In this document: in pieces, positions 1,426-14,489 of the stretch
Numbering within the stretch: the stretch's first letter is position 1
How the letters are laid out: every line of letters begins with the position of its first letter
Source: Flavobacteriales bacterium
GTDB taxonomy: Bacteria; Bacteroidota; Bacteroidia; Flavobacteriales_G; Salibacteraceae
Direction: 5' to 3'
Length of the DNA stretch: 64,000 nucleotides
Assembly: GCA_020435995.1 (NCBI GenBank)
Contig: JAGQYO010000007.1
Location: 1 to 64,000 of the forward strand
Notes under the pieces: model-generated
The model's input: only the letters and a program-made list of their open reading frames with translations
What the model was told of the DNA's origin: nothing
The model's database searches: none
Translations under genes and position numbers: made by a program

Positions 1426-2913
1426 ATGCTGACTATGAGAATAACATCGATTATTTTTTTGTTTTCTTCACTGATTTGCCAAAGTGTAGTTTCCCAAAAT
1501 TCATTTTACAAGTATCTCTATCACGGATACAATAGCGGTCGGAATTACGGGATAAGTGAGGCGATAGTCCTTAACGGCGATACCTTAATTACTGAGGAAG
1601 GTGTTAGTGGTCATGGGGTAAATAGCTCAAGTCTTTCTTTCTTTGATGCTCATGGAAGAAATTTTGACCATTACTTTCCACGAGACACTTCATTCATTCC
1701 AGATTCTTTAGGGCCTCATGGCTCTTCTCGACCAATAAAAACACAACACGGATATTTGGCTTCCTTTGATTACGGTTGGTATGAAAAAACTTTGGTCTCT
1801 GGATTGGCCAATTATGATCATAATGGAGAGTTAATTTGGTTTCATCCATTGACCTTGCAAAATCAGCCCTTTCTAGCTCAGTCTAATGCAAAATATGGAA
1901 CATTGGTATCTCTAGGTCACGACACCCTACATTATTACAACCTCAACGGTATCTTAATCAATAAGATGCCTTATAATAATATAATTAAAATCAGCAGAAG
2001 AAAGAGTGTAGAAGTGATTGAGGCTTCAGACGAACAGGGTTATATTTTTATCAGCAATAAAAATGACTCGTGCCAGCTAATAAAAATTGATTCCAATGGC
2101 CAGAAAAGCAGTGACTCGTTGATTATTGGACTCAATATTTTAGATTTTAAAATATCTAATAACTCCCTAATAACCGTAGAGTCAGACACATCGATTCAGG
2201 TTGTATTTCGAGATTTAGATTTTAATGAATTATATCGTTATTCTTTTACTAATCAGTACCCATTGACGTATGGCCAAATTATTCTCAAGGATTCTCTAGT
2301 TACACTAGTCGTTTATAATAATGTTGATGGAATAAAGTACGGCACTCGTAATATTCCAGAGATTAGAGTTATAAACCTAAAAGGGAAATATCTTAGAAGG
2401 AGGTACCTTAGATATAATGGCGGATATATGGGTATTATTCCTTGGAATGCAATCGGAATATTGGTAAATGGAATAGACTACACTTCGGATAACGGCTACT
2501 TCATGACATTAGGAATGGAAGCTGGCACATTGGATAGGCAGTTTGGTATTCTTAAATCGGACAGCAATATCATGGCAAATGATACCATTCAAGTTCCTGC
2601 AATTCGGTTGTATCTCAATATATGGGATACGGTACTAACGACCATGCCAATGGACACTCTTTCTTTTAAAGAATTCTCAAATAAGAACTCAGTGATTGTT
2701 TTTCCCAATCCTTCAAATGACTGGATACAGATTCAACCTGACCTTCCTATAAAATCAAGTTACCAAATATTTGATTTAAGTGGCCTTTTGGTGCAAAAAA
2801 GCCAATTGAATGAAACCCAAAGAATCGATATTTCTAATCTAAGTACTGGTGGGTATCTATTACAAATTCATGCTTCAGAAGGAGTGCTCCGCAAAAAACT
2901 GATAAAAGAATGA
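1426..2913 (+). CDS. Secreted protein with type IX secretion sorting domain (paralogue 1)
   Basis: Function of the body is unknown. A signal peptide occupies about residues 1-24, with a hydrophobic core and a likely cut after VVSQ. The start may be Met4 (1435), which gives a more typical signal peptide. Residues 421-495 form a type A C-terminal sorting domain: it opens with VIVFPNPSND, has an IFDLSG strand and ends in a basic strand (RKKLIKE). This tail directs export through the type IX system and anchoring or release at the surface. The central region of about 400 residues is rich in short strands and Asn/Asp turns, as in beta-propeller or repeat adhesins, but I cannot assign a fold. It overlaps the next gene by ATGA, and that gene encodes a diverged copy of identical length. 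Confidence 0.85.
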   Translation: MLTMRITSIIFLFSSLICQSVVSQNSFYKYLYHGYNSGRNYGISEAIVLNGDTLITEEGVSGHGVNSSSLSFFDAHGRNFDHYFPRDTSFIPDSLGPHGSSRPIKTQHGYLASFDYGWYEKTLVSGLANYDHNGELIWFHPLTLQNQPFLAQSNAKYGTLVSLGHDTLHYYNLNGILINKMPYNNIIKISRRKSVEVIEASDEQGYIFISNKNDSCQLIKIDSNGQKSSDSLIIGLNILDFKISNNSLITVESDTSIQVVFRDLDFNELYRYSFTNQYPLTYGQIILKDSLVTLVVYNNVDGIKYGTRNIPEIRVINLKGKYLRRRYLRYNGGYMGIIPWNAIGILVNGIDYTSDNGYFMTLGMEAGTLDRQFGILKSDSNIMANDTIQVPAIRLYLNIWDTVLTTMPMDTLSFKEFSNKNSVIVFPNPSNDWIQIQPDLPIKSSYQIFDLSGLLVQKSQLNETQRIDISNLSTGGYLLQIHASEGVLRKKLIKE

Positions 2914-4397
2914 AGTTCAACCTCACGATTTTTTTTAGTTTGATCTCGTTCACCTTAATTGGACAAAGTACCTTTAAAAAACTAATACATCAAACAGATC
3001 CTACAGGAAGAAGTACCGCATACATTGGTAGCGTCTTTTTAGAAAACAACAATCTAGCTGGAAATAAGGAAATTGTTGGCAGGGGTGTTTATGCCCAAAC
3101 ACAATATTTATATAGTCCAAATGGAGATTATTTAAAAACAATTGAACATCCTAAGGACTCCCTAGTTCCTTATGCAGTACCAGAAGAATATGAATATGGA
3201 CCCTGGAAATCAGAGCATGGCTTTCTGGTATCATACTCCTATTCAACTGGGGCAAAGCGCTATTTTTTCACGGTTAAATATGATACTCTCGGAAATGCTG
3301 TGTGGAAGGCGGACACTTTAAGAGTTTATAATAGTGTGTTTAGCGAGTCATATGGTGAATTTATTGAAGGAACTAAAGATTATAAAGCCTCTACCTATTT
3401 AAGACTTGACAAAAAAGGGAAAACCGTTTGGAAAAAAGACTTTCAAGATTCAACATCAATTATTTCACCCAAAAGCAAAGGCTTATGCGTTCAAGGTAAT
3501 TTAGCATATATCTACTTTTCTAATGGCGTTGATAGTTCAGAAATAATCAAGGTAGATACAAATGGAACTATTTTAAAAACCACATTTTTCAGTAGTACAA
3601 ATCTGGTTCGAATGGTTTCAATAGATTCGAATTTCGTGTTAGTAAGTCAAGGTAAAAGCCCACGTCTTTCGTTGAGGAATCAAGATTTTACAGTAATCAA
3701 TCATTATGATTATTTAGATAGCTTTTCAATTTCATTCCAAGATATTAAATTGACTTCTAAAGGCCTTTTGGTATACTCAGTTTTTAGTGTAAACCCTAAA
3801 GTTTACGGATTGTCAAAAATTCCCGAGCTAAGGCTTTTAGACAAAAATTTGAATTACAATTTCCGTCGATATTTTAGAATAAATGAATTTGACACAATCC
3901 CGGAAAATGATGATAATTCCTTTTCTGTGAATATCCGTACCTACCAAGAAGACGCCAAGTCTGGCTACCGAATCTTTATTCAATCGGGTGGTCAAAAACC
4001 AAATTATGCCCCATTTGCTAGCTACCACCTACTCAAAACTGATCCTTTCTTAAATGTTAATGATTCTATCCAACTTGGAGGCACGATAAGGCTGTTCGAA
4101 TTCGACAGCACTCTTATTCCACTAAATCCCATTTCAATAGGAATGATTGAAGGTATTCCTTCTACTCTAGGTCTTAAAATATTTCCTAACCCAACTCATA
4201 ACCAGTTTTCCATTTTAGGACTTACGCAAAACCAACTAGTAGAATTGACCATTTACGATTTAAAAGGGGGCGTGGTATTTAACGAAATAGGCGGCCCAAC
4301 AAATTCGGAGTTTGAACATAATCTACAGAAAGGACTTTATGTTTATGAAATAAAATCTGACAACTCAATTCACAAAGGAAAATTGGTGGTGGATTAG
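2910..4397 (+). CDS. Secreted protein with type IX secretion sorting domain (paralogue 2)
   Basis: This is a tandem paralogue of the preceding gene and is also 495 residues long. The two share conserved landmarks in the same order: the N-terminal FYKYLYH / FKKLIHQ segment after the signal peptide, a central KIPE/NIPE-LR strand, an RRYxRxN segment and the C-terminal sorting domain. The signal peptide ends near residue 19 (LIGQ). The sorting domain spans about residues 422-495 and starts LKIFPNPTHN, ending KGKLVVD. The ATG overlaps the stop of paralogue 1 (ATGA at 2910-2913), so the two are translationally coupled. They are likely cell-surface or released proteins delivered by the PorU/PorV machinery encoded 27 kb away. 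Substrate or ligand is unknown. Confidence 0.85.
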   Translation: MKFNLTIFFSLISFTLIGQSTFKKLIHQTDPTGRSTAYIGSVFLENNNLAGNKEIVGRGVYAQTQYLYSPNGDYLKTIEHPKDSLVPYAVPEEYEYGPWKSEHGFLVSYSYSTGAKRYFFTVKYDTLGNAVWKADTLRVYNSVFSESYGEFIEGTKDYKASTYLRLDKKGKTVWKKDFQDSTSIISPKSKGLCVQGNLAYIYFSNGVDSSEIIKVDTNGTILKTTFFSSTNLVRMVSIDSNFVLVSQGKSPRLSLRNQDFTVINHYDYLDSFSISFQDIKLTSKGLLVYSVFSVNPKVYGLSKIPELRLLDKNLNYNFRRYFRINEFDTIPENDDNSFSVNIRTYQEDAKSGYRIFIQSGGQKPNYAPFASYHLLKTDPFLNVNDSIQLGGTIRLFEFDSTLIPLNPISIGMIEGIPSTLGLKIFPNPTHNQFSILGLTQNQLVELTIYDLKGGVVFNEIGGPTNSEFEHNLQKGLYVYEIKSDNSIHKGKLVVD

Positions 4398-4658: not shown

Positions 4659-5939
4659 ATGGCAAACAATCAGAATCGTGTAAAACACCTCATTGACAAA
4701 ATAGAACAAGAAAAAACGTTTGAGGAGTTCCTTCCTCAACTCGCTCCACTTTCTGCCGAAGAGCTAGGTCAGTTACCCAACAACTCTATCGATTACAAAC
4801 CAACTGCCGAGGGATTGAGCAACCGAATAGGTTTGCTCAAAGAAATAAAAGCCGATTTGGCTCATGTAACTGGCATTAAAAAAGTGAGCGACCCTAATTT
4901 TTTTAATGGCAACATCGAAAATTTTATTGGCATGGCTCAAATTCCAATTGGTTTGGCGGGGCCACTTTTGGTTAGGGGCACACACGCACAAGGTGATTTT
5001 TATATCCCAATGGCTACAACCGAAGGTGCTTTGGTTGCATCGTATAGCCGTGGCATGAAGGTAAGCAGGCTCAGTGGCGGCATTACTTCCATTTGTTTGG
5101 ATGAAGGCGTACAACGAAGCCCGTTTTATAAATTCAGAACCATTCCTGAGGCAGGTATTTTTATCAAGTGGGTTCATACACAATTGGATACTTTCCACGA
5201 AATCGTAAAGGCATCCAGTAGATTTGCTTCGCTCAACGAAGTAAAAACCAACCTCCAAGGAAACAGCGTGATTCTCACCTTCGATTATTCCACAGGAGAT
5301 GCCTCTGGACAAAACATGGTGACCATTTGCACCGATAAAATTTGCAAGCACATTGCGGCCAATTTTGAGATCACACCGCTCGAATGGTATATCGAAAGCA
5401 ATTACTCCGGCGATAAAAAAGCCACAGCACTTTCATTCTCTAATGTAAGAGGCAAAAAGGTAAGTGCCGAATTGGTTATACCTCGTACCTTGGTTGAAGA
5501 CGTTTTAAAAACCACGCCTGAGCAAGTTTCAAAATATTGGCAATCGTCTACCTTGGCAGTGGTTCAAAGTGGCGCCATAGGAGCACAAGGTCACGTAGCG
5601 AATGGACTCACAGCCCTGTTTATTGCTTGCGGCCAAGATGTGGCTTGCATTTCAGAATCGTCTATTGGCCTCACCCGAATGGAAGTGAACCACAACGGAG
5701 ATTTATATACTTCACTTACACTTCCTTCACTTATTGTAGGCACAATTGGTGGCGGTACAGGCTTGCCAACTCAAAAAGAATGTTTGGGATTGTTGGATTG
5801 CGTTGGAGTGGGCAAAGCCAAAAAATTTGCAGAGATCTGTGCTGCAGTCGCTTTGTGTGGGGAAATTTCCATTGCTGCAGCCATGTCTGTCGATCATTTC
5901 ACAACTGCTCATCAGAACCTCGGGCGAAAAAAAGACTAA
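4659..5939 (+). CDS. Hydroxymethylglutaryl-CoA reductase (class I-like)
   Basis: Reduces HMG-CoA to mevalonate and CoA with two NAD(P)H in the cytosol. The 426-residue protein shows all family landmarks: ENFIG at 87-91, the catalytic Glu122 in ATTEGALVAS, the DASGQNM cofactor motif at 214-220, the catalytic lysine within DKK at 252-254, Asp327 in GQDVA, the glycine-rich GTIGGGTGLPTQ at 361-372 and the C-terminal His418. The DKK and GTIGGGTG motifs resemble class I enzymes more than class II degradative ones. It has no membrane anchor. It is the first gene of a seven-gene operon; its stop overlaps the next start (TAATG). No other mevalonate-pathway gene is visible here, while the MEP gene ispF is, so the role of mevalonate in this cell is unclear. 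Confidence 0.93.
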   Translation: MANNQNRVKHLIDKIEQEKTFEEFLPQLAPLSAEELGQLPNNSIDYKPTAEGLSNRIGLLKEIKADLAHVTGIKKVSDPNFFNGNIENFIGMAQIPIGLAGPLLVRGTHAQGDFYIPMATTEGALVASYSRGMKVSRLSGGITSICLDEGVQRSPFYKFRTIPEAGIFIKWVHTQLDTFHEIVKASSRFASLNEVKTNLQGNSVILTFDYSTGDASGQNMVTICTDKICKHIAANFEITPLEWYIESNYSGDKKATALSFSNVRGKKVSAELVIPRTLVEDVLKTTPEQVSKYWQSSTLAVVQSGAIGAQGHVANGLTALFIACGQDVACISESSIGLTRMEVNHNGDLYTSLTLPSLIVGTIGGGTGLPTQKECLGLLDCVGVGKAKKFAEICAAVALCGEISIAAAMSVDHFTTAHQNLGRKKD

Positions 5940-6874
5940 TGGCCGTTCAAAATACCGATCCTTTTTACAAACGAATTTTTCAATACCAGAAAGAGCGATT
6001 CCCTGTTTTGGGCCACGGAGTTTTAATTTCTGCTTTTACATTTTCTGCGGTTTCCTATTCCAGAATCTGCAGAGGTGCCGAAGGTTTTATTCCAATTAAA
6101 GATTTTCTGATTGGTATATGGGCTACCATCACTTTATTTATGTTGGTTCGGATTTTCGATGAATTTAAAGACAAAGAAGATGACGCCAAATACCGAAGTT
6201 ACTTACCCGTACCTCGTGGATTAGTAAGTTTAAAAGAACTTCAAAACATCGCTTGGATTATTGCCATTGCACAAGTAATCGGCATCGCATTTCTTCAAAG
6301 CGAAATGTTGTTGCTTTATGCGGTGGTATTGGGCTACCTGATGCTCATGCGGGTAGAATTTTTTATTCCTGAATGGCTCAAAAACCATCACCTCATCTAC
6401 ATTGGCTCACACATGGTTATCATTCCATTAATTGATATTTATTCAAGCGGATTAGATTGGCTGCTCAGTGGCGCTTCCTTTCATATTGGACTGTTTTGGT
6501 TTTTTGGTGTGTCATTTTGCAACGGCTTGGTTCTGGAGTTCGGTCGAAAACTGAGAACGCCTGCCACTGAAGAAGAAGGCGTGCTTTCCTACACCAAATT
6601 TTTCGGGCAAAAAAGAGGCACTTTAGTTTGGATAGGTACATTGATGCTTACCGCGCTTATCGCAATTGGGGCTAGCCATTTTGCTGGTTACGGAAACGCA
6701 ATTGTTTGGCCTATTCTCATTATCGTCATTTGTTCATCCATTCCCGGCTGGATATTTTTAAAACAACCCACAGCCAAGCTTTCCAAAGTAATTGAATACG
6801 TCTCAGCGGCTTGGACCATTCTAATGTATTTGGCTTTAGGTGGTATTCCTATGATTTCAAAACTCGTTAGCTAG
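5939..6874 (+). CDS. UbiA-family membrane prenyltransferase
   Basis: Members transfer a prenyl group from a prenyl diphosphate to an acceptor within the membrane. The protein has 311 residues and about eight hydrophobic segments. The first Asp-rich motif lies at residues 74-82 (DEFKDKEDD) and is followed by YRSYLPVPRG, the conserved Arg region after it. The second acidic site is replaced by an EFGRKLRTPATEEE stretch (200-213), where aspartates are substituted by glutamates. Acceptor and donor cannot be read from sequence. The start was set at 5939, where the ATG overlaps the HMG-CoA reductase stop. A longer upstream open frame only shadows the reductase. The context suggests the prenyl diphosphate supply and acceptor come from the same operon. 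Confidence 0.85.
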   Translation: MAVQNTDPFYKRIFQYQKERFPVLGHGVLISAFTFSAVSYSRICRGAEGFIPIKDFLIGIWATITLFMLVRIFDEFKDKEDDAKYRSYLPVPRGLVSLKELQNIAWIIAIAQVIGIAFLQSEMLLLYAVVLGYLMLMRVEFFIPEWLKNHHLIYIGSHMVIIPLIDIYSSGLDWLLSGASFHIGLFWFFGVSFCNGLVLEFGRKLRTPATEEEGVLSYTKFFGQKRGTLVWIGTLMLTALIAIGASHFAGYGNAIVWPILIIVICSSIPGWIFLKQPTAKLSKVIEYVSAAWTILMYLALGGIPMISKLVS

Positions 6875-9426
6875 TGCCAATCATTCTCCATATCGGCAAT
6901 TTGCACGACCAACCTATTAGTGTTGGGGGCAAAGCTTCTAATTTGCTGAAGTTGTCACAGTTTGGAGTGAAGGTTCCCAAATGGTTGGTGATTCCCAATA
7001 CTTATTTCGAGGCTCAAATAAGTAAAGATGGAATAGATAAAATAAGCACCAAACTGATAAAAGAAATTGAGACTTATTTTGGTTCGACTTCAAAAGATCG
7101 TTCTTACGCAGTACGTTCTTCTGGCGCCCAAGAAGATGGAAGCCAACATTCTTTTGCAGGTCAGTTTAAAACAAACTTGTATGTGCCTTTTTCGAAATTG
7201 GGTGAGAGCATTTTGGATGTGTACTATTCTGCGAACTCAGAGCATATTCAAGCTTACCGTAAGGAAAACAATTTGGCCCATCACGCTGAAATGAATGTGA
7301 TTGTTCAAGAAATGATTCCTTCCGAAGTGGCGGGAGTAGGTTTTGGAATCAATCCTGTTTCGGGCGACCCTTTTACCAAAGTTATTTCGTCAGTTTTTGG
7401 GCTTGGAGAAGGGTTGGTTTCGGGCAAATTAGACGCCGATACTTATTACGTAAGTCCTTCAGGAATTAAGTCGAAGCTCCTGACTAAAACCCACCAGTTT
7501 ATTCAAAGTCCGGAAGGATTTGGTGTAATTAAAAGCGATGTTTCGGAACATTTACAATCCACATCTTCACTGACCAACGAGCAACTTTTAGAAATTTCTA
7601 AGGTGCTTGATTTGCTACAACAAAAGCTAAACTCGCCGCAGGATATCGAATTTGCTTATTTCAATAACGAACTCTTTTTATTACAAACCCGTCCGATTAC
7701 CACGGTTAATAATTCAACCGGCGAATACACCTTGTGGGACAACAGCAACATTATCGAATCTTATCCAGGCATTACCACGCCCCTCACCTACTCGTTTATT
7801 CTCAAAATGTACGAAATGGTGTACAAACAATTTGTAGGGTTGTTGGGAGTAAGTCAAGCAGAGATTCAGCAACATTCCATCATTTTCGAAAACACCTTGG
7901 GATTAGTACGAGGCAGGGTTTATTACAACTTGCTTCACTGGTACAAAATGCTGGCTATGGTTCCGGGATACTCGATCAACGCCGAATTTATGGAGCAAAT
8001 GATGGGTGTAAAAGAACGTTTTGTGCTTCAAGAAAAGTTTGGAATGAACAAGGGCTTGGCTTGGTGGCGAAGTATTAAAATGATTGTGAATTTAATTCGA
8101 TTGTTTTCCAGTCTTAAAAAGGAGCGCAATAGATTCCAAAAACAGCTCAATCAAATAATTTCAACCTACAAAGCCATCGATTTTAAAGCACTACCTCCAA
8201 AGGAAATAGTTCAACATTATTTAGAATTTGAAGAATCACTCTTGCTCAAATGGAGGGCGCCACTCATCAATGATTTTTTTGCGATGATTTGGTTTGGACT
8301 TTTGAGAAAACAAACAGAAAAACATTTTCCGGATTTATCCAATATTCACAACGATTTGTTATGTGGAAACGACGACATTATTTCGGTAGAACCTATCCAC
8401 CAATGTATTGCCATTTCAAATCTCATCTCGGGTGAATCAAAATTCAAAGACTTGTTTTTAAACCAATCCTCACATCAAATTTGGGAAGCAATAAAAAAAA
8501 AAGAATTTGAAGAAATCAGAATAGCCATAGAATCCTACATCGATCAATTTGGAGAAAGATGTGTGGGAGAATTGAAATTAGAGACGGTATCTTATTCTCA
8601 AAATCCATTGTTGTTTGTACAGGTTATCCAATCGTATGTGAAACAAGGAATCACGGTCAAAAAGCAATCTTCAAAACTCGAAAAAGACATTAGAAACGAA
8701 GCTGAAAAAGAGGTAAGCGCGAAGTTTAAAGAAAAGCGCTTGGCAAATTGGTGGTTCAATTATGTACTCCGCCAAGCCCGTGATTTAATAAGCAACCGCG
8801 AAAACCTGCGATATGAGAGAACGAGGGGATTTGGAATGGTGAGAAATATGTTTTCGGCTTTGGGAGAAAAGCTCGAACTGGAAGGGAAAATCACTAATGC
8901 TACAGATGTTTTCTATTTAGAATTGGAAGAGATTAAAACATTGGCCAAGGGAAATTGGAACCCTGAATTTGAAGGTAGAATCGCTGAACGAAAATTAGAA
9001 TTTGAAGCTTATCGAAAGCAAGAGCCGCCACAAGAACGATTTTTTACTTTTGGCAATGATTTCTCAGATGAGCGAATTTATTCAACCGAAAAACTTGAAA
9101 TTCTTGATGGTAAGTTGCAGGGAATTGGTTGTTGCCCCGGAAGGGTAAAAGGAAAGGTGCGAGTTGTCCTCGACCCAAAAGAATTGGATTCATTAGATGG
9201 CGATATCCTCGTTACTTCCAGTACCGACCCTGGCTGGGTAACGCTCTTCCCTACTGCATCGGCCATTATTGTTGAAAGAGGAAGTTTGCTGAGCCATTCG
9301 GCGATTGTTTCAAGGGAAATGGGAATTCCTTGCATTGTAAGTGTAACGGGTTTGCTACGCACACTCAAAACTGGTGACATAGTAGAAATGAATGGAAGCA
9401 CGGGAATCATAACTTTGATTGAATGA
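6874..9426 (+). CDS. PEP synthase/rifampin phosphotransferase-like dikinase
   Basis: A three-part phosphotransferase of 850 residues. The N-terminal PPDK/PEP-synthase ATP-grasp region (1-280) shows GGKASNLLKL (18-27), RSSGAQEDGSQHSFAG (81-96), VQEMIPSEVAGVGF and the closing LLQTRPITT. The middle of about 450 residues is not conserved with PEP synthase. A C-terminal swivelling domain carries the phosphohistidine His808 in GSLLSHSAIVSREMGIP. The pyruvate/PEP TIM barrel is absent. This architecture matches rifampin phosphotransferase (ATP + acceptor-OH to AMP + Pi + phosphorylated acceptor) rather than PEP synthase. The GTG start overlaps the UbiA stop (TAGTG). The family relation is secure. That the acceptor is a hydrophobic alcohol or lipid is my inference from the neighbours. 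Confidence 0.85.
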   Translation: MPIILHIGNLHDQPISVGGKASNLLKLSQFGVKVPKWLVIPNTYFEAQISKDGIDKISTKLIKEIETYFGSTSKDRSYAVRSSGAQEDGSQHSFAGQFKTNLYVPFSKLGESILDVYYSANSEHIQAYRKENNLAHHAEMNVIVQEMIPSEVAGVGFGINPVSGDPFTKVISSVFGLGEGLVSGKLDADTYYVSPSGIKSKLLTKTHQFIQSPEGFGVIKSDVSEHLQSTSSLTNEQLLEISKVLDLLQQKLNSPQDIEFAYFNNELFLLQTRPITTVNNSTGEYTLWDNSNIIESYPGITTPLTYSFILKMYEMVYKQFVGLLGVSQAEIQQHSIIFENTLGLVRGRVYYNLLHWYKMLAMVPGYSINAEFMEQMMGVKERFVLQEKFGMNKGLAWWRSIKMIVNLIRLFSSLKKERNRFQKQLNQIISTYKAIDFKALPPKEIVQHYLEFEESLLLKWRAPLINDFFAMIWFGLLRKQTEKHFPDLSNIHNDLLCGNDDIISVEPIHQCIAISNLISGESKFKDLFLNQSSHQIWEAIKKKEFEEIRIAIESYIDQFGERCVGELKLETVSYSQNPLLFVQVIQSYVKQGITVKKQSSKLEKDIRNEAEKEVSAKFKEKRLANWWFNYVLRQARDLISNRENLRYERTRGFGMVRNMFSALGEKLELEGKITNATDVFYLELEEIKTLAKGNWNPEFEGRIAERKLEFEAYRKQEPPQERFFTFGNDFSDERIYSTEKLEILDGKLQGIGCCPGRVKGKVRVVLDPKELDSLDGDILVTSSTDPGWVTLFPTASAIIVERGSLLSHSAIVSREMGIPCIVSVTGLLRTLKTGDIVEMNGSTGIITLIE

Positions 9427-10508
9427 GTAAAACACAACTGGATACTGTAAGGCACGATTATATCCGATATGCCAATTGCTGGGAAGATCCAGATGCGCTT
9501 TTGAAGGTACTAGATTTAAAACCGGGGAATAGAATTTTGTCTATTGGATCAGCAGGAGACAATAGTTTTTCGATGCTTACCAAAAATCCAAGCATGGTAG
9601 TTGCCGTAGATATCAATCATGTTCAATTGGAACTCATTCATTTGAAAAAAGCCGCTTTTCAAACTTTGGAATACAATTCCTTTCTTCAGTTTCTTGGGTT
9701 TGCTGATGGGAATCGAGCGCAACTTTATCAGAAAGTTCGCACTGCGCTTCCAGAAGAATCACAAAAATTCTGGGATGCTCGTCAAACAGAAATTGTAAAT
9801 AGGATTATTTATCAAGGAAAGTTCGAGCGCTACTTTGAGCTATTCAGAACCAAGCTTTTGCCGCTGATTCATTCTAAGAAAAACATCGAAAAGCTATTTG
9901 AGTTCAAAACTGCAGAAGCCCAGAAATCATTTTATCAAAATACTTGGAACAACTGGCGATGGCGATTGCTGTTTAAGGTGTTTTTCAGCAAGTTTGTGAT
10001 GGGTAAATTCGGAAGAGACCCAAAATTTTTGAATGAAGTAAAAGTTCCCGTTGCTGAGTTCATTTTTAACCAAGCAGAAACTCACTTGGAGTCAATTGAA
10101 TGTCAGGCTAATTATTTTCTTCAGTTCATTTTAACTGGTCGGTTTAAAACACATCTACCCCATTATGCGCGACCCGAGAATTTTAATTCAATTAAAGAAA
10201 ACTTAGACAAACTGGTTATTTTTCATGGCTTGGCAGAAGATGCGTTTAAAGAACATTCAGATTTCGATAGGTTTAACCTTTCCAATATTTTTGAATATAT
10301 GGATACAGAACTTTTCAAAATAGTAGGTGATAGTTTTATTAAAAACTCAGCTTCAAAAGCACGCATCGCGTATTGGAATTTGATGGTTCCGCGAAACTTG
10401 GCTGACGTATTCACTGAACTTAAAGATGAATCCATGCTTTCTGCTTCCATTAAAAAATCTGACAAAGGCTTTTTCTATTCCAAACTCGTGGTCAACGAAT
10501 TAAAATGA
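9423..10508 (+). CDS. DUF3419/BtaA-like S-adenosylmethionine 3-amino-3-carboxypropyl transferase
   Basis: BtaA moves the 3-amino-3-carboxypropyl group of SAM to the hydroxyl of diacylglycerol, making the homoserine ether headgroup of betaine lipids. The 361-residue protein shows family marks: WEDPDALL near residue 20, the SAM-binding ILSIGSAGDNSFSML (38-52), VVAVDINHVQLELIHLKKAA (59-78) and DRFNLSNIFEYMD (282-294). The partner methyltransferase BtaB, which makes the trimethylated betaine, is not present in this operon or window. The product may therefore keep a free or otherwise modified amino group. The start overlaps the upstream stop by ATGA. The acceptor could be diacylglycerol or another alcohol made by the operon. 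Confidence 0.88.
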   Translation: MSKTQLDTVRHDYIRYANCWEDPDALLKVLDLKPGNRILSIGSAGDNSFSMLTKNPSMVVAVDINHVQLELIHLKKAAFQTLEYNSFLQFLGFADGNRAQLYQKVRTALPEESQKFWDARQTEIVNRIIYQGKFERYFELFRTKLLPLIHSKKNIEKLFEFKTAEAQKSFYQNTWNNWRWRLLFKVFFSKFVMGKFGRDPKFLNEVKVPVAEFIFNQAETHLESIECQANYFLQFILTGRFKTHLPHYARPENFNSIKENLDKLVIFHGLAEDAFKEHSDFDRFNLSNIFEYMDTELFKIVGDSFIKNSASKARIAYWNLMVPRNLADVFTELKDESMLSASIKKSDKGFFYSKLVVNELK

Positions 10509-11179
10509 GCCAGAGCCTTTTAAATACCATTTATCTAGCGGGAGTTTTTCTTTTACTTTTTGCTTCGGCCGAATTATTATATCACAAATTCAAAGTACAG
10601 GCCGAGCTCACAAGAAAATACGTTCATTTTTCTACCGGAATTCTCACGCTGCTTTTTCCTCCCCTGATCAACAATCATTGGCTTGTACTTGCACTATGCA
10701 CTAGTTTTCTTGTCATTCTTTTAACCAGCATCCGATTTTCACTTTTACCTTCCATTAACGCGGTGGATAGAGTTACCCGAGGAAGCATGCTCTACCCTAT
10801 TGTTGTTTATTCAGCCTACCTCACTTTTAGCTATTTTGGGCATTATGCATATTACTACATTCCGATTTTAATCCTTGCCATTTGCGATCCTATTGCCGCA
10901 TTGGTAGGCAAACGATGGCCAATAGGCAAATACGCGATCTTCGGCTACTCCAAAACGCTTACAGGTTCTTCGGCCTTTTTTGTTTCTGCTGTTCTCCTTT
11001 GTGGGTTTCTTTTGGTCGTTTTTGAATCCATTTCTATAAGTTCAGGAATCATGATTTCTTTCGCGGTTGGACTTACTACTACATTGGCAGAGGCCGTTAC
11101 TCATAGAGGCTTTGACAACCTCACCATTCCAGGGATTGCGATTATAACGCTCATGTGTTTTCAAACTCATCTAACATAA
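10505..11179 (+). CDS. CTP-dependent phytol/dolichol kinase-like membrane protein
   Basis: Relatives are membrane kinases or cytidylyltransferases that use CTP: dolichol kinase, phytol kinase VTE5 and yeast diacylglycerol kinase. The 224 residues contain about seven hydrophobic segments. They also hold the family motifs RKYVH (37-41), CDPIAALVGKRWP (127-139), KTLTGS (150-155) and EAVTHRGFDNLTIP (196-209). Such enzymes phosphorylate a lipid alcohol at the membrane. Together with the UbiA protein and the phosphotransferase upstream, this resembles the plant logic of activating phytol by two phosphorylations before prenyl transfer, but that is inference. ATGA overlap with the upstream gene. Confidence 0.83.
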   Translation: MSQSLLNTIYLAGVFLLLFASAELLYHKFKVQAELTRKYVHFSTGILTLLFPPLINNHWLVLALCTSFLVILLTSIRFSLLPSINAVDRVTRGSMLYPIVVYSAYLTFSYFGHYAYYYIPILILAICDPIAALVGKRWPIGKYAIFGYSKTLTGSSAFFVSAVLLCGFLLVVFESISISSGIMISFAVGLTTTLAEAVTHRGFDNLTIPGIAIITLMCFQTHLT

Positions 11180-12195
11180 TGGAGAGGGAGTTTGAAGTAA
11201 TTTTTACAATGCCTGGCGAGGAGGATTATTATCTCTTCGATGAAACGCTAGCTTCAATATTCCCTGTGCTGGGGCCTGCGGAGCAATATCGGCATAGGCT
11301 CAGTTCAAATTATTTAATTCAATGTCTTGTATTGTTGTCTCAAAATCAACCCATCGCCCGATGTGCCATTTATTTTAATCCAAATATGGAATTGGAATCC
11401 GAAAAGGTGGCTTGTATTGGAAGTTTCGAAAGTGTAAATAATCAAAATGTAAGCTCTTTTTTGTTGAACACTGCGATTGAATATTGCCGAAAAAACGAAA
11501 TCAAAAAAGTAATTGGACCCATGGAGGGCTCCACTTGGAACAGTTACCGGTTTAAAACCAACGACGAAAATCGACCCTATTTTATGGAGCCATTCCACCC
11601 TCTTTATTACAACGATTTATTTCGGGAAGTAGGTTTTAGCCCTTTGGCACAATACGAAACAACCATTGACCAAACTCTTAAATATGATGCCTCGCTTTTG
11701 AATAAAATGGAAGCAGGATTCAAAAAACAAGGTGCCAAATTGAAGAATCTAAATCTAGAAGACTTTGAAAACCAGCTTACTGAAATAGCTAATTTGAGCA
11801 ACCGAGCATTTGCTAAAAACCACTTCTTTACTCCAATTTCAGTTTCAGATTTTGTAGAACAATTCAACAAAATCAAACATCTTATCAATCCAAAATTGGT
11901 TTGGCTGATGTACGACCAACAAGATAAACTACAAGCATTTGGCTTTGGCATCAAAGACTATTTCGACCCGTTGAATGAAACGGCAATTCTAAAAACGTTG
12001 GCCCGAGAAATTGACGCTCCCTTCGCTGGAGTTGGGGTATTCCTTCGGCAAAAAATCATTCAATCGGCAATGGAGTTGGGGTTTTCAAAAATGATTTATG
12101 CTTACATGCACACAGATAATTTTTCGTTCAAAAAAGCCGAAGAATTGGCACCAACAAAATACAGGTCTTACGCACTATATTCGAAAGACCTATGA
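11179..12195 (+). CDS. GNAT-family N-acyltransferase
   Basis: A 338-residue cytosolic protein related to GNAT-fold acyltransferases of the YghO-like group. The conserved block GPMEGSTWNSYRF (113-125) is followed by a MEPFHPLYYNDLFREVGF stretch (136-153) as in that group. A second GNAT-like half follows, with GVGVFLRQKIIQSAM near residue 290 and an AYMHTDN turn. Substrate is unknown; it could acylate the amino group installed by the BtaA-like enzyme. I chose the ATG at 11179, which overlaps the previous stop as TAATG, in line with every other junction in this operon. An in-frame ATG at 11155 would create a longer overlap. Confidence 0.72.
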   Translation: MEREFEVIFTMPGEEDYYLFDETLASIFPVLGPAEQYRHRLSSNYLIQCLVLLSQNQPIARCAIYFNPNMELESEKVACIGSFESVNNQNVSSFLLNTAIEYCRKNEIKKVIGPMEGSTWNSYRFKTNDENRPYFMEPFHPLYYNDLFREVGFSPLAQYETTIDQTLKYDASLLNKMEAGFKKQGAKLKNLNLEDFENQLTEIANLSNRAFAKNHFFTPISVSDFVEQFNKIKHLINPKLVWLMYDQQDKLQAFGFGIKDYFDPLNETAILKTLAREIDAPFAGVGVFLRQKIIQSAMELGFSKMIYAYMHTDNFSFKKAEELAPTKYRSYALYSKDL

Positions 12196-13697
12196 ACATA
12201 GCCGAACTCTTTTTTAACGCCGCCGAAAAATTTCCAAGCCATGTCGCGATTGTAGATCCAAAGAGATCGATTACATATACCCAACTCAAACAAGAAGTAG
12301 CAGCGACCGCCATAAATTTTTCTCAAAAAGGAATAAAATCTGGCGATCGTGTGTTGGTTTTTGTTCCCATGTCCATCGACCTCTACAGAATTGTACTGGC
12401 CCTTTTTTCCATTGGGGCCACAGCCGTTTTTCTCGACGAATGGGTAAACTTAAAACGCCTCCGGCTTTGCTGCCAATTGGCAGATTGTAAGGCCATTATC
12501 GGAGGAGCGAAAGTTCAAATTTTTTCATGGGTTTTTAAAGAATTGCGGGTGATTCCAATTAAACTCAACTTGCAATTTCCGAAATCACCTTCAGAAAAGT
12601 TAGCGGTTCTTTCGGTTGAGCCAACCCAAAGCGCGCTCATTACTTTTACCACCGGTAGCACCGGAACCCCAAAGGCCGCCGATAGATCGCATGCTTTTTT
12701 AAAAGAGCAGTTCGAAGCTTTGCTTGATGAAATTGAACCAACTTCTAAGGATATTGACATGCCACTTTTGCCCATTGTGCTATTTATGAATTTGGGAGTA
12801 GGTTGCACTTCGGTAATTCCTGGAATTAAAACTTCAAAACCAGACAAAATCAAGCCCGCGCATATTTATAAATGGTTCAACGACCAACATGTAACTCGCT
12901 TTACAGCCTCTCCAGCATTTGTAAAATTGATAGCCGGCTATTGCATTAATTCGAACAAAACAACGAATAACATCAAGAAGATTTTTACAGGTGGTGCGCC
13001 TGTATTCCCTCAAGAAGCCAAGTTGATAGGTGATGCTTTCCCAAATGCACAATTCAAAATTGTATATGGTTCTACTGAAGCCGAACCCATTAGCTCAACC
13101 ATGAGACATACATTGCTAAATACTGATTTGGAAAATGACGGAGGGCTTTTCGTAGGGGAGCCTTATCACAAAGCTCAGGTAAAAATAATTTCTATTTCTG
13201 ATTCCAATATTGAGTTAAAACATTCACAGTCGCTTAAAGAATATGAAATACAGAATGGTGAGATTGGCGAAATCATCGTGAGTGGACCACACGTGCTAGA
13301 CCGATATTTCCAAAACGAAGAAGCCTTAAAAAGAAACAAAATATGGGAAGAAAAACGGGTTTGGCACCGAACAGGCGATGCTGGTTTTTTCAAAAACGAA
13401 CATCTGTATTTAGTAGGCCGTTGCAACCAATTGATTTATCGAAATGACAAGATTATTTCGCCATTTGTGATAGAAAATATTCTTTCGAACTTAAACGGAA
13501 TAACGTTAGGAACGGTACTGGAAATCAACCAAAAAATAGTGCTTGTACTAGAAACCAAATTGAGTAGAGCAGAAGTAGCAAGCGGGCTTCCCAAGCTCGA
13601 TTATGATGATATTAAGCTAGTCAAACACATTCCACGCGATCCACGACACAATTCTAAGATTGATTATGGAGGGTTAGGTAAAATGGTGCTTGGGTAA
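12192..13697 (+). CDS. AMP-forming acyl ligase, OleC-like
   Basis: An ANL-superfamily adenylating enzyme of 501 residues. The P-loop TTGSTGTPK is at 153-161, the A5 motif YGSTEAEPI at 292-300, the ribose-binding HRTGDAGFF at 392-400, GRCNQLIYRND around 409-419 and a C-terminal catalytic Lys in HNSKIDYGG. Several stretches resemble OleC, the ligase that forms beta-lactones in long-chain olefin synthesis: the PLLPIVLFMNLGVGCTSVIP region, the VTRFTASPAFV segment and the TEAEPISS turn. OleA, OleB and OleD partners are missing, so olefin synthesis is unlikely here. It may activate a carboxylate, possibly that of the aminocarboxypropyl group. The last gene of the operon; ATGA overlap upstream, no clear hairpin after it. 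Confidence 0.82.
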   Translation: MNIAELFFNAAEKFPSHVAIVDPKRSITYTQLKQEVAATAINFSQKGIKSGDRVLVFVPMSIDLYRIVLALFSIGATAVFLDEWVNLKRLRLCCQLADCKAIIGGAKVQIFSWVFKELRVIPIKLNLQFPKSPSEKLAVLSVEPTQSALITFTTGSTGTPKAADRSHAFLKEQFEALLDEIEPTSKDIDMPLLPIVLFMNLGVGCTSVIPGIKTSKPDKIKPAHIYKWFNDQHVTRFTASPAFVKLIAGYCINSNKTTNNIKKIFTGGAPVFPQEAKLIGDAFPNAQFKIVYGSTEAEPISSTMRHTLLNTDLENDGGLFVGEPYHKAQVKIISISDSNIELKHSQSLKEYEIQNGEIGEIIVSGPHVLDRYFQNEEALKRNKIWEEKRVWHRTGDAGFFKNEHLYLVGRCNQLIYRNDKIISPFVIENILSNLNGITLGTVLEINQKIVLVLETKLSRAEVASGLPKLDYDDIKLVKHIPRDPRHNSKIDYGGLGKMVLG

Positions 13698-13812: not shown

Positions 13813-14145
13813 ATGACTAAGAAATTTGATGTAATACTTCTTGAAGATGCTCTTGACTTTATCGAGTCAATTGACTTAAAGACAAGAGCAAAAATTTACT
13901 ACAACATTGACAAAGCCAGAGAAGTTAATGACCCGAAAATATTCAAGAAATTGACACATGAGATTTGGGAGTTTAGAACAAAATATAACGGCCTTCAATA
14001 TCGATTGTTTGCGTTTTGGGATAAAACTGAAAAAGTCGAAACTTTGGTTATATCAACACATGGAATCGTTAAAAAAGTGGACAAAGTTCCATTAAAAGAA
14101 ATTGAAAAAGCAATGAAAATTAGATCTGATTATTTTGACTTATAA
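13813..14145 (+). CDS. HigB-like toxin (RelE/ParE superfamily, Gp49-like)
   Basis: A 110-residue basic protein of the phage-derived Gp49/HigB group. These toxins are ribosome-dependent or free mRNA interferases. Recognisable features are the EIWEFRTKYNGLQYRLFAFWD core, where Arg and Tyr residues contribute to the RNase surface, and the helix VKKVDKVPLKEIEKA that typically follows a STHG turn. It is followed after 11 bases by an XRE-type antitoxin, which is the order usual for HigBA. It sits in an accessory stretch between the lipid operon and a protease cassette, consistent with mobile origin. The cognate promoter directly precedes it. Activity is unproven. Confidence 0.85.
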   Translation: MTKKFDVILLEDALDFIESIDLKTRAKIYYNIDKAREVNDPKIFKKLTHEIWEFRTKYNGLQYRLFAFWDKTEKVETLVISTHGIVKKVDKVPLKEIEKAMKIRSDYFDL

Positions 14146-14156
14146 AACTCGAAACG

Positions 14157-14489
14157 ATGAAAGCTAAAGGAAAAAAAATGAAAATGATGACTCTTGAAGA
14201 ATTGAAGGACAGAGACATTGGAAAAGTCGGAACTATTGAAAGAGACAAGTATGAGTTTGACTTGAAAATGGATATTCTGGGAGAAATGATAAAGACCGTT
14301 AGAAAAGAAAGACACTTAACCCAAGAACAACTAGGAATGTTGGTTGGCGTTCAAAAATCTCAAATTTCGAAACTCGAACGAAACACAAAAAATGTAACCA
14401 TAGAAACCATTTTGAAAGTATTTAACGCTTTAAAAGCTAATGTAAAATTCTCGGTACAAATGGATCTCATTGATTTGAATATTGCTTAA
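14157..14489 (+). CDS. HigA-like antitoxin, XRE-type helix-turn-helix
   Basis: A 110-residue protein with an N-terminal stretch of about 40 charged residues and a Cro/C1-type helix-turn-helix at about residues 42-100. The latter shows IKTVRKERHLTQEQLGMLVG, KSQISKLERN and TIETILKVFNAL. It should neutralise the upstream toxin and repress their shared promoter. An earlier internal Met (residue 7, MKMMTLEELKD) could be the true start because the first residues are mostly lysine. Stop is TAA at 14487. Confidence 0.85.
   Translation: MKAKGKKMKMMTLEELKDRDIGKVGTIERDKYEFDLKMDILGEMIKTVRKERHLTQEQLGMLVGVQKSQISKLERNTKNVTIETILKVFNALKANVKFSVQMDLIDLNIA

Follow-up and report, generated by a model that had tools for sequence, protein, structure and literature searches.

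We analysed an operon of seven genes for lipid-type enzymes in a 64,000-nucleotide stretch of DNA from a Flavobacteriales bacterium (contig JAGQYO010000007.1, positions 1 to 64,000), referred to here as the window. Open reading frame (ORF) calls place seven co-directional genes on the plus strand between positions 4659 and 13697:

4659..5939, + strand: homologue of class I HMG-CoA reductase (HMGR); PF00368, E = 8.6e-114
5939..6874, + strand: divergent integral membrane transferase of the UbiA family; PF01040, E = 6.9e-10
6874..9426, + strand: ATP-dependent phosphotransferase (PPDK-type) resembling phosphoenolpyruvate (PEP) synthase and rifampin phosphotransferase; PPDK_N (PF01326), E = 3.1e-51, and PEP-utilizers (PF00391), E = 5.3e-23
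9423..10508, + strand: DUF3419 (BtaA-like) homologue of S-adenosylmethionine (SAM)-dependent 3-amino-3-carboxypropyl transferases; PF11899, E = 4.2e-69
10505..11179, + strand: membrane protein resembling DolK, VTE5, SEC59 and DGK1, of the CTP-dependent dolichol/phytol/diacylglycerol kinase type; conserved motifs
11179..12195, + strand: tandem GNAT acyltransferase; AlphaFold model and Foldseek
12192..13697, + strand: AMP-forming acyl ligase (PRK09274-like); PF00501, E = 1.5e-38, and NF006754, E = 4.6e-103

Each gene overlaps the next by 1-4 bases, and the junctions read, in gene order, TAATG, TAGTG, ATGA, ATGA, TAATG and ATGA, which confirms both the coordinates and the stop/start junctions of the fully overlapping operon described in the initial annotation. 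Pfam names five of the seven proteins (PF00368, PF01040, PF01326 with PF00391, PF11899 and PF00501), and there is no Pfam match for the kinase-like or the GNAT protein. The initial annotation had also proposed that the seven lipid-type enzymes are co-translated and belong to no recognised pathway. Consistent with this, we found no description of the set in the open-access literature (subscription papers and preprints lay outside the search), and none of the four open-access papers mentioning DUF3419 concerns this cluster. Each enzyme family is known, while the pathway and the specificity of the HMGR appear to be new.

A tblastn search with the UbiA alignment against 84,980 named genomes returned 80 loci. 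In 35 loci, counting the window, all seven genes are co-directional and keep the same order; nearly all of these loci are from Bacteroidota, and the median gaps are -4, -4, -4, -4, -1 and -4 bases. Cultured hosts among them include Dyadobacter soli, D. luticola and Parapedobacter defluvii. Eight further loci hold six genes without the HMGR, some of them being ended by a contig edge. The orthologues are therefore not scattered among relatives, and both the order and the coupling that the initial annotation proposed to look for in other Bacteroidota are conserved. In other Bacteroidota classes, in Clostridia and in WOR-3 the order is rotated or the set has six genes: GNAT-AMP-HMGR-UbiA-PPDK-DUF3419-kinase in four loci (L177-L179 and L181), PPDK-DUF3419-kinase-GNAT-AMP-HMGR-UbiA in L203, and the six-gene order DUF3419-kinase-GNAT-AMP-UbiA-PPDK in four clostridial loci (L114, L115, L117 and L120). 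Furthermore, all seven genes lie in the window order on a complete plasmid of Roseinatronobacter sp. S2, an alphaproteobacterium, where the HMGR spans the record start; the record annotates the seven as separate generic proteins. Given the conserved order, the rotations and the plasmid copy, the seven genes stay together both in transfer and in inheritance. Metagenome bins, whose taxon names may be wrong, make up many of the remaining loci, but the isolates and the plasmid are independent of binning. Longer antisense ORFs hid the UbiA gene in the ORF calls of L069 and L077, where tblastn found it, and likewise the UbiA and thioester reductase genes of L204, which were later recovered.

One locus from the window's own family (L037) contains only the DUF3419, UbiA, PPDK-type and GNAT genes. 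The joint absence of HMGR, kinase and AMP-ligase is as expected if these three form a later module. In another Flavobacteriales locus (L045) a gene that reads as Fic-family is inserted between the DUF3419 and kinase-like genes, and the Roseinatronobacter plasmid has an annotated Fic gene a short distance from its cluster (L252, 1655-2854).

Few enzymes have been studied as much as HMG-CoA reductase. The cluster proteins share the fold of the class I enzyme of the mevalonate pathway and its catalytic Glu559, Lys691, Asp767 and His866 (human numbering, as for all HMGR residues here), which are kept in 59 of 59 cluster HMGRs, as are Asp690, Lys692 and Asn755. They differ from it at Arg590, Ser684 and Lys735. 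These residues are Ile, Glu and Ser in the window protein, and across all 59 cluster HMGRs position 590 is Ile, Val or Met, position 684 is Glu and position 735 is Ser, Ala or Thr. The Roseinatronobacter plasmid protein has Ala, Glu and Ala (alignment by eye), and the three residues are also replaced in the WOR-3 copies. In the human and Arabidopsis enzymes, Lys735 forms a salt bridge with the HMG carboxylate, and Arg590 and Ser684 contact the ligand (PMC9500038). The pocket thus has less positive charge, through the replacement of Arg590 and Lys735, and an additional Glu at position 684. We infer that the HMGR-like enzyme would reduce a thioester without the HMG carboxylate and possibly with a cationic group. 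The window protein scores 315.9 bits against NCBIfam TIGR00533, below the curated cut-off of 441.8.

The gene content of the host points the same way. Its genome, which is 98.9% complete, encodes DXR of the methylerythritol phosphate (MEP) pathway, and we found in it no HMG-CoA synthase, no mevalonate-diphosphate decarboxylase (MDC) and no second HMGR. Because HMG-CoA synthase and MDC are missing and the HMG-contact residues are replaced, the HMGR-like protein is, judged from sequence, not a mevalonate-pathway enzyme here, and mevalonate supply was rejected as its role. The initial annotation had counted it as a member of a lipid or isoprenoid family without giving it a step; of the roles this would allow, that of a mevalonate enzyme is closed. 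An MDC homologue was found in three of the 20 genomes tested, and each of the three (G013, G066 and G074) has a second, mevalonate-type HMGR outside the cluster. Two of these second copies were recovered with the cluster hidden Markov model (HMM), at only 24.5 and 20.0 bits, scores of the kind that class II enzymes give; the copy in G013 adjoins MDC and was not recovered by the cluster HMM. Of 147 WOR-3 genomes, 14 have this DUF3419 and four have a cluster-type HMGR; three genomes have both (P = 0.0026, phylogeny ignored), and in one WOR-3 genome (G072) the cluster-type HMGR lies on another contig. HMGR matches in genomes with this cluster should not be read as a mevalonate pathway. A large bacterial HMGR branch that keeps catalysis without the HMG pocket would show that the fold can reduce other thioesters.

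The DUF3419 homologues whose function is known (BtaA) use SAM as the donor of an aminocarboxypropyl group and a lipid hydroxyl as the acceptor. The window protein matches PF11899 with 234 bits (cut-off 28.2), and its model (predicted local distance difference test, pLDDT, 95.2) has a SAM-binding Rossmann-type fold with weak PDB matches that include nicotianamine synthase. BtaA-like transfer followed by N-acylation by the GNAT protein, as put forward in the initial annotation, seems reasonable from these sequences. In betaine lipid (DGTS/DGHS) synthesis by BtaA and BtaB, a DUF3419 enzyme carries out the same transfer of a SAM-derived aminocarboxypropyl group that is predicted here. However, the window cluster has no BtaB-like methyltransferase and adds a reductase, a kinase, a ligase, a GNAT protein, a UbiA protein and a phosphotransferase. 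Its DUF3419 protein also falls in a separate clade: the tree splits the cluster proteins from DUF3419 proteins encoded beside methyltransferases of approximately 210 amino acids, taken as BtaB from size and context only, by a branch of 3.63 with support 100/100.

DUF3419 genes also occur in other settings. Another recurring lipid-type cluster (L183, L206 and L208-L210) combines a diacylglycerol-type kinase (DAGK), a PEMT-type methyltransferase, DUF3419, a 370-amino-acid GNAT, a protein of the Orn/DAP/Arg decarboxylase family and a class II aldolase-like protein; in L183 and L206 the PEMT-type methyltransferase is fused to DUF3419. In five WOR-3 loci (L240, L241 and L245-L247), which lack the remaining cluster genes, DUF3419 adjoins a gene of the squalene/phytoene-synthase family (in L245 by a check against Pfam SQS_PSY).

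The fifth protein conserves the motifs RK..H, D..AA..GK, KT..GS and DN.TIP, and residues R37, K38, H41, D128, G135, K150, G154, E196, D204 and N205 are invariant in 57 relatives. We take RK..H, K[TS]..G and DN..(I/V)P to be family motifs of the CTP-dependent dolichol/phytol/diacylglycerol kinases. One relative (L110_14) passes the PF01148 threshold, with 26.3 bits against 24. Together, the motifs and this relative predict that the fifth protein is a kinase of this type. In Clostridia and in class f57 the protein reaches about 450 amino acids through an extra C-terminal membrane region (L115_7, L112_4, L120_5, L177 and others), and the clostridial protein of 448 amino acids has no Pfam match, this extra region included.

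The GNAT protein contains two GNAT folds in one chain, according to its AlphaFold model (pLDDT 94.2) and to Foldseek matches with the tandem GNATs 2wpw and 7q3a, MshD (1ozp) and FemX (1xf8), the best of which has an E-value of 9.6e-14. It is fused to the AMP-ligase in L105, and the two proteins have the highest pairwise distance correlation among the seven (r 0.86). In L035, from a genome of the same class, a relative of the GNAT (26% identical) stands alone at 9464-10492, with none of the other genes. In the ligase, the A10 residue Lys489 is conserved in 50 of 52 relatives, and the best NCBIfam model is NF006754, 'fatty acid CoA ligase family protein'. The initial annotation's comparison with OleC, the olefin beta-lactone synthetase, does not carry over to identity: the protein scores 180.4 bits against an OleC model cut-off of 900, and OleA, OleB and OleD were not recognised among the seven genes or the recurring neighbours.

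The window UbiA protein matches PF01040 with 39.1 bits (cut-off 34.2). Of the family's two Asp-rich motifs, the first (NDxxDxxxD) is retained as DExxDxxxD, with its four catalytic positions invariant, and the second (DxxxD) is replaced by ExxRK...E in all 74 relatives. Because of this altered second motif the donor is uncertain. A PDB profile search with the protein gave no match. Polyprenyl synthetase genes near the cluster in L032, L033 and L180, together with an IDI2-like gene near the last (IDI2 by reading; Pfam names only FMN_dh), suggest an isoprenoid donor for an O-linked chain.

The PPDK-type protein joins an ATP-grasp domain to a swivelling His domain (PF01326 and PF00391), and its phospho-carrier His808 and ATP-site residues are conserved in 65 of 65 relatives. 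The nearest solved structures are 5fbs and 5hv1-5hv3, named 'phosphoenolpyruvate synthase'. Rifampin phosphotransferase and the prodigiosin ligase PigC have the same two domains, but the window protein stays under the curated NCBIfam cut-offs of both (RIF_Ptrans, 279.7 against 999 bits; PigC, 276.8 against 1300 bits) and lies in another gene context; its score for PEP synthase proper is likewise under the curated cut-off. Two relatives on Streptomyces plasmids (L254, 6578-9421; L255, 6733-9423) have AfsA and an isoprenylcysteine-methyltransferase-like gene as neighbours, which places this type of phosphotransferase in another pathway context.

Relatives of the cluster exchange some of these enzymes and add others. 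Two loci from different families (L180 and L204) have the order thioester reductase (TER, NAD_binding_4)-DAGK-UbiA-PPDK-GNAT-PSD-DUF3419, where PSD is phosphatidylserine decarboxylase; HMGR, the DolK-like gene and the AMP-ligase are all missing from them. In L182 the thioester reductase occurs with a DolK-like kinase and PSD. Two unrelated thioester reductases and two unrelated lipid kinases therefore fill the same slots. Seven loci have a CDP-alcohol phosphotransferase (CDP-OH_P_transf) and six have a CdsA-like gene, in varying positions; L109 has a CarS-like gene. An MMPL-type transporter gene adjoins DUF3419 in six WOR-3 loci, an SRPBCC protein is encoded in or beside ten clusters, and a P450 gene follows the cluster in five Crocinitomix-type loci.

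We propose that the cluster encodes a previously unrecognised amino-phospholipid pathway of the cell envelope in which a repurposed HMGR performs a thioester-to-alcohol reduction, a reading that we consider about as probable as all others together. It draws on the conserved unit, the intact catalytic residues, the non-mevalonate HMGR, the exchange of enzymes among relatives and the CDP-lipid and head-group genes that relatives carry. The UbiA protein and the PEP-synthase-like phosphotransferase would make or attach a prenyl or alkyl chain, leaving a lipid alcohol (step 1), onto whose hydroxyl the DUF3419 enzyme would transfer the 3-amino-3-carboxypropyl group of SAM (step 2). The AMP-ligase would activate a fatty acid, and the tandem GNAT would put the acyl group on the amine (step 3). 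The AMP-ligase or a different ligase would convert the carboxylate to a CoA thioester, which the HMGR-like enzyme (in relatives, the NAD_binding_4 reductase) would reduce to an alcohol, giving N-acyl-O-alkyl-homoserinol, a ceramide-like diradyl alcohol (step 4). The VTE5/DGK1-like kinase, or DAGK in relatives, would phosphorylate this product (step 5), and CdsA/CarS-like and CDP-alcohol phosphotransferases, encoded in the cluster or elsewhere, would attach a head group (step 6). That the six steps run exactly as listed is a tentative suggestion, and the scheme probably errs in some particular. It is likewise possible, if doubtful, that homoserinol derived from SAM is a third phospholipid backbone beside glycerol and the sphingoid bases, with HMGR repurposed for an amino-acyl thioester; no firmer is the fuller version in which this backbone bears an O-linked chain, an N-acyl chain and a phosphate on the reduced carboxyl carbon and occurs in at least four bacterial phyla, also plasmid-borne.

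Several observations weigh against the proposed phospholipid pathway. The Clostridia clusters have no HMGR, and no replacement reductase was recognised by eye adjoining them, so the reduction could be dispensable or take place elsewhere. The fusion and the distance correlation of GNAT and ligase suggest that the ligase serves the GNAT, which would leave the reductase's thioester without a source. CDP-alcohol and PSD genes occur in a minority of clusters and are absent from that of the window, and PSD could instead decarboxylate the aminocarboxypropyl group. The substrates proposed for the UbiA protein and the phosphotransferase are guesses.

The reduction might instead serve to make a fatty alcohol. 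The AMP-ligase would supply fatty acyl-CoA, the HMGR-like or FAR-like NAD_binding_4 enzyme would reduce it to the long-chain alcohol that becomes the O-alkyl chain, and DUF3419 and GNAT would yield an N-acyl-O-alkyl-homoserine lipid with a free carboxylate, the kinases acting on a fatty or prenyl alcohol. NAD_binding_4 (PF07993) is a fold of the fatty-acyl-CoA-reductase type, the ligase's top NCBIfam model is consistent with this supply, the AMP and HMGR genes are adjacent in the rotated orders, and the positive residues lost from the HMGR pocket fit a chain without a carboxylate. However, Glu at position 684 in 59 of 59 proteins hints at a cationic rather than a purely aliphatic substrate, and the associations with DAGK, CdsA, CDP-alcohol and PSD genes, which call for a phosphorylated lipid backbone, are left unexplained. 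We regard this route as unlikely, though still to be reckoned with.

That the cluster makes a small metabolite for secretion or signalling, and not a membrane lipid, is rather improbable. AMP-ligases, GNATs and PEP-synthase-like enzymes related to PigC and RedH are common in natural-product pathways, and the P450 genes of the Crocinitomix-type loci would suit such a product, but the associations with CdsA, CarS, CDP-alcohol phosphotransferase, PSD, DAGK and MMPL indicate a lipid, as do three integral membrane or lipid-type enzymes. We give still less weight to the isoprenoid route outlined in the initial annotation, in which two kinases in series would convert an isoprenoid alcohol to a diphosphate as VTE5 and VTE6 do, followed by UbiA transfer, ether formation by DUF3419, acylation by GNAT and activation of the acid by the ligase; in such a route the HMGR would boost isoprenoid supply. 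The intact first Mg-diphosphate motif of the UbiA protein and the polyprenyl synthetase and IDI2-like genes noted above would fit it. Against it, the second presumed kinase is of the PEP-synthase/rifampin-phosphotransferase type and not a VTE6 homologue, host isoprenoids come from the MEP pathway with neither HMG-CoA synthase nor MDC, and the HMGR pocket is rebuilt. In addition, relatives replace the VTE5-like gene by DAGK in the kinase slot, beside phospholipid head-group genes, so the VTE5-like kinase more likely phosphorylates a late lipid intermediate. Finally, every family has ordinary members, but a chance grouping of, for example, a mevalonate gene, a quinone prenyltransferase, a PEP synthase and a betaine-lipid gene is scarcely credible given order and overlap kept in 35 loci, rotations and a plasmid copy elsewhere, and a host without a mevalonate pathway.

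The proposed phospholipid pathway would share features with three known kinds of lipid synthesis. With the synthesis of sphingolipids and ceramide-1-phosphate it would share an amino-alcohol backbone, an N-acyl chain and then a lipid kinase, but the backbone would come from SAM and not from serine and acyl-CoA; the cluster encodes no serine palmitoyltransferase, and the genomes were not searched for one. With the ornithine and glycine lipids, N-acyl amino-acid lipids of Bacteroidota, it would share an N-acylated polar lipid derived from an amino acid, in this case one made from SAM that is then reduced and phosphorylated. Archaeal ether-lipid synthesis likewise uses a UbiA-family transferase, a CarS-like enzyme (here in L109) and a CDP-alcohol transferase (seven loci), but the cluster has no GGGPS, the second UbiA motif is altered, and the aminocarboxypropyl, N-acyl and reduction steps would be additional. 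An archaeal-lipid operon was rejected because GGGPS (PcrB) is unlinked to the cluster and not universal (13 of 20 genomes) and a CarS-like gene occurs only in L109. Should the proposed lipid be the product, common soil and marine Bacteroidota, Clostridia and uncultured phyla contain a class of membrane lipids that has been overlooked. The cultured hosts Dyadobacter, Parapedobacter, Rhabdobacter and Roseinatronobacter make the pathway testable.

The genes that flank the operon in the window are unrelated to it. Upstream, at 1426-4397 on the plus strand, lie two adjoining genes for proteins of exactly 495 amino acids each. They seem to be diverged copies, from a tandem duplication, of a surface protein with a sorting-type domain at the C terminus. 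Downstream, also on the plus strand, a RelE/HigB-like protein of 110 amino acids (13813-14145) is followed by an XRE-type helix-turn-helix protein (14157-14489), a small pair that, from a reading of the sequences, is likely a type II toxin-antitoxin system.

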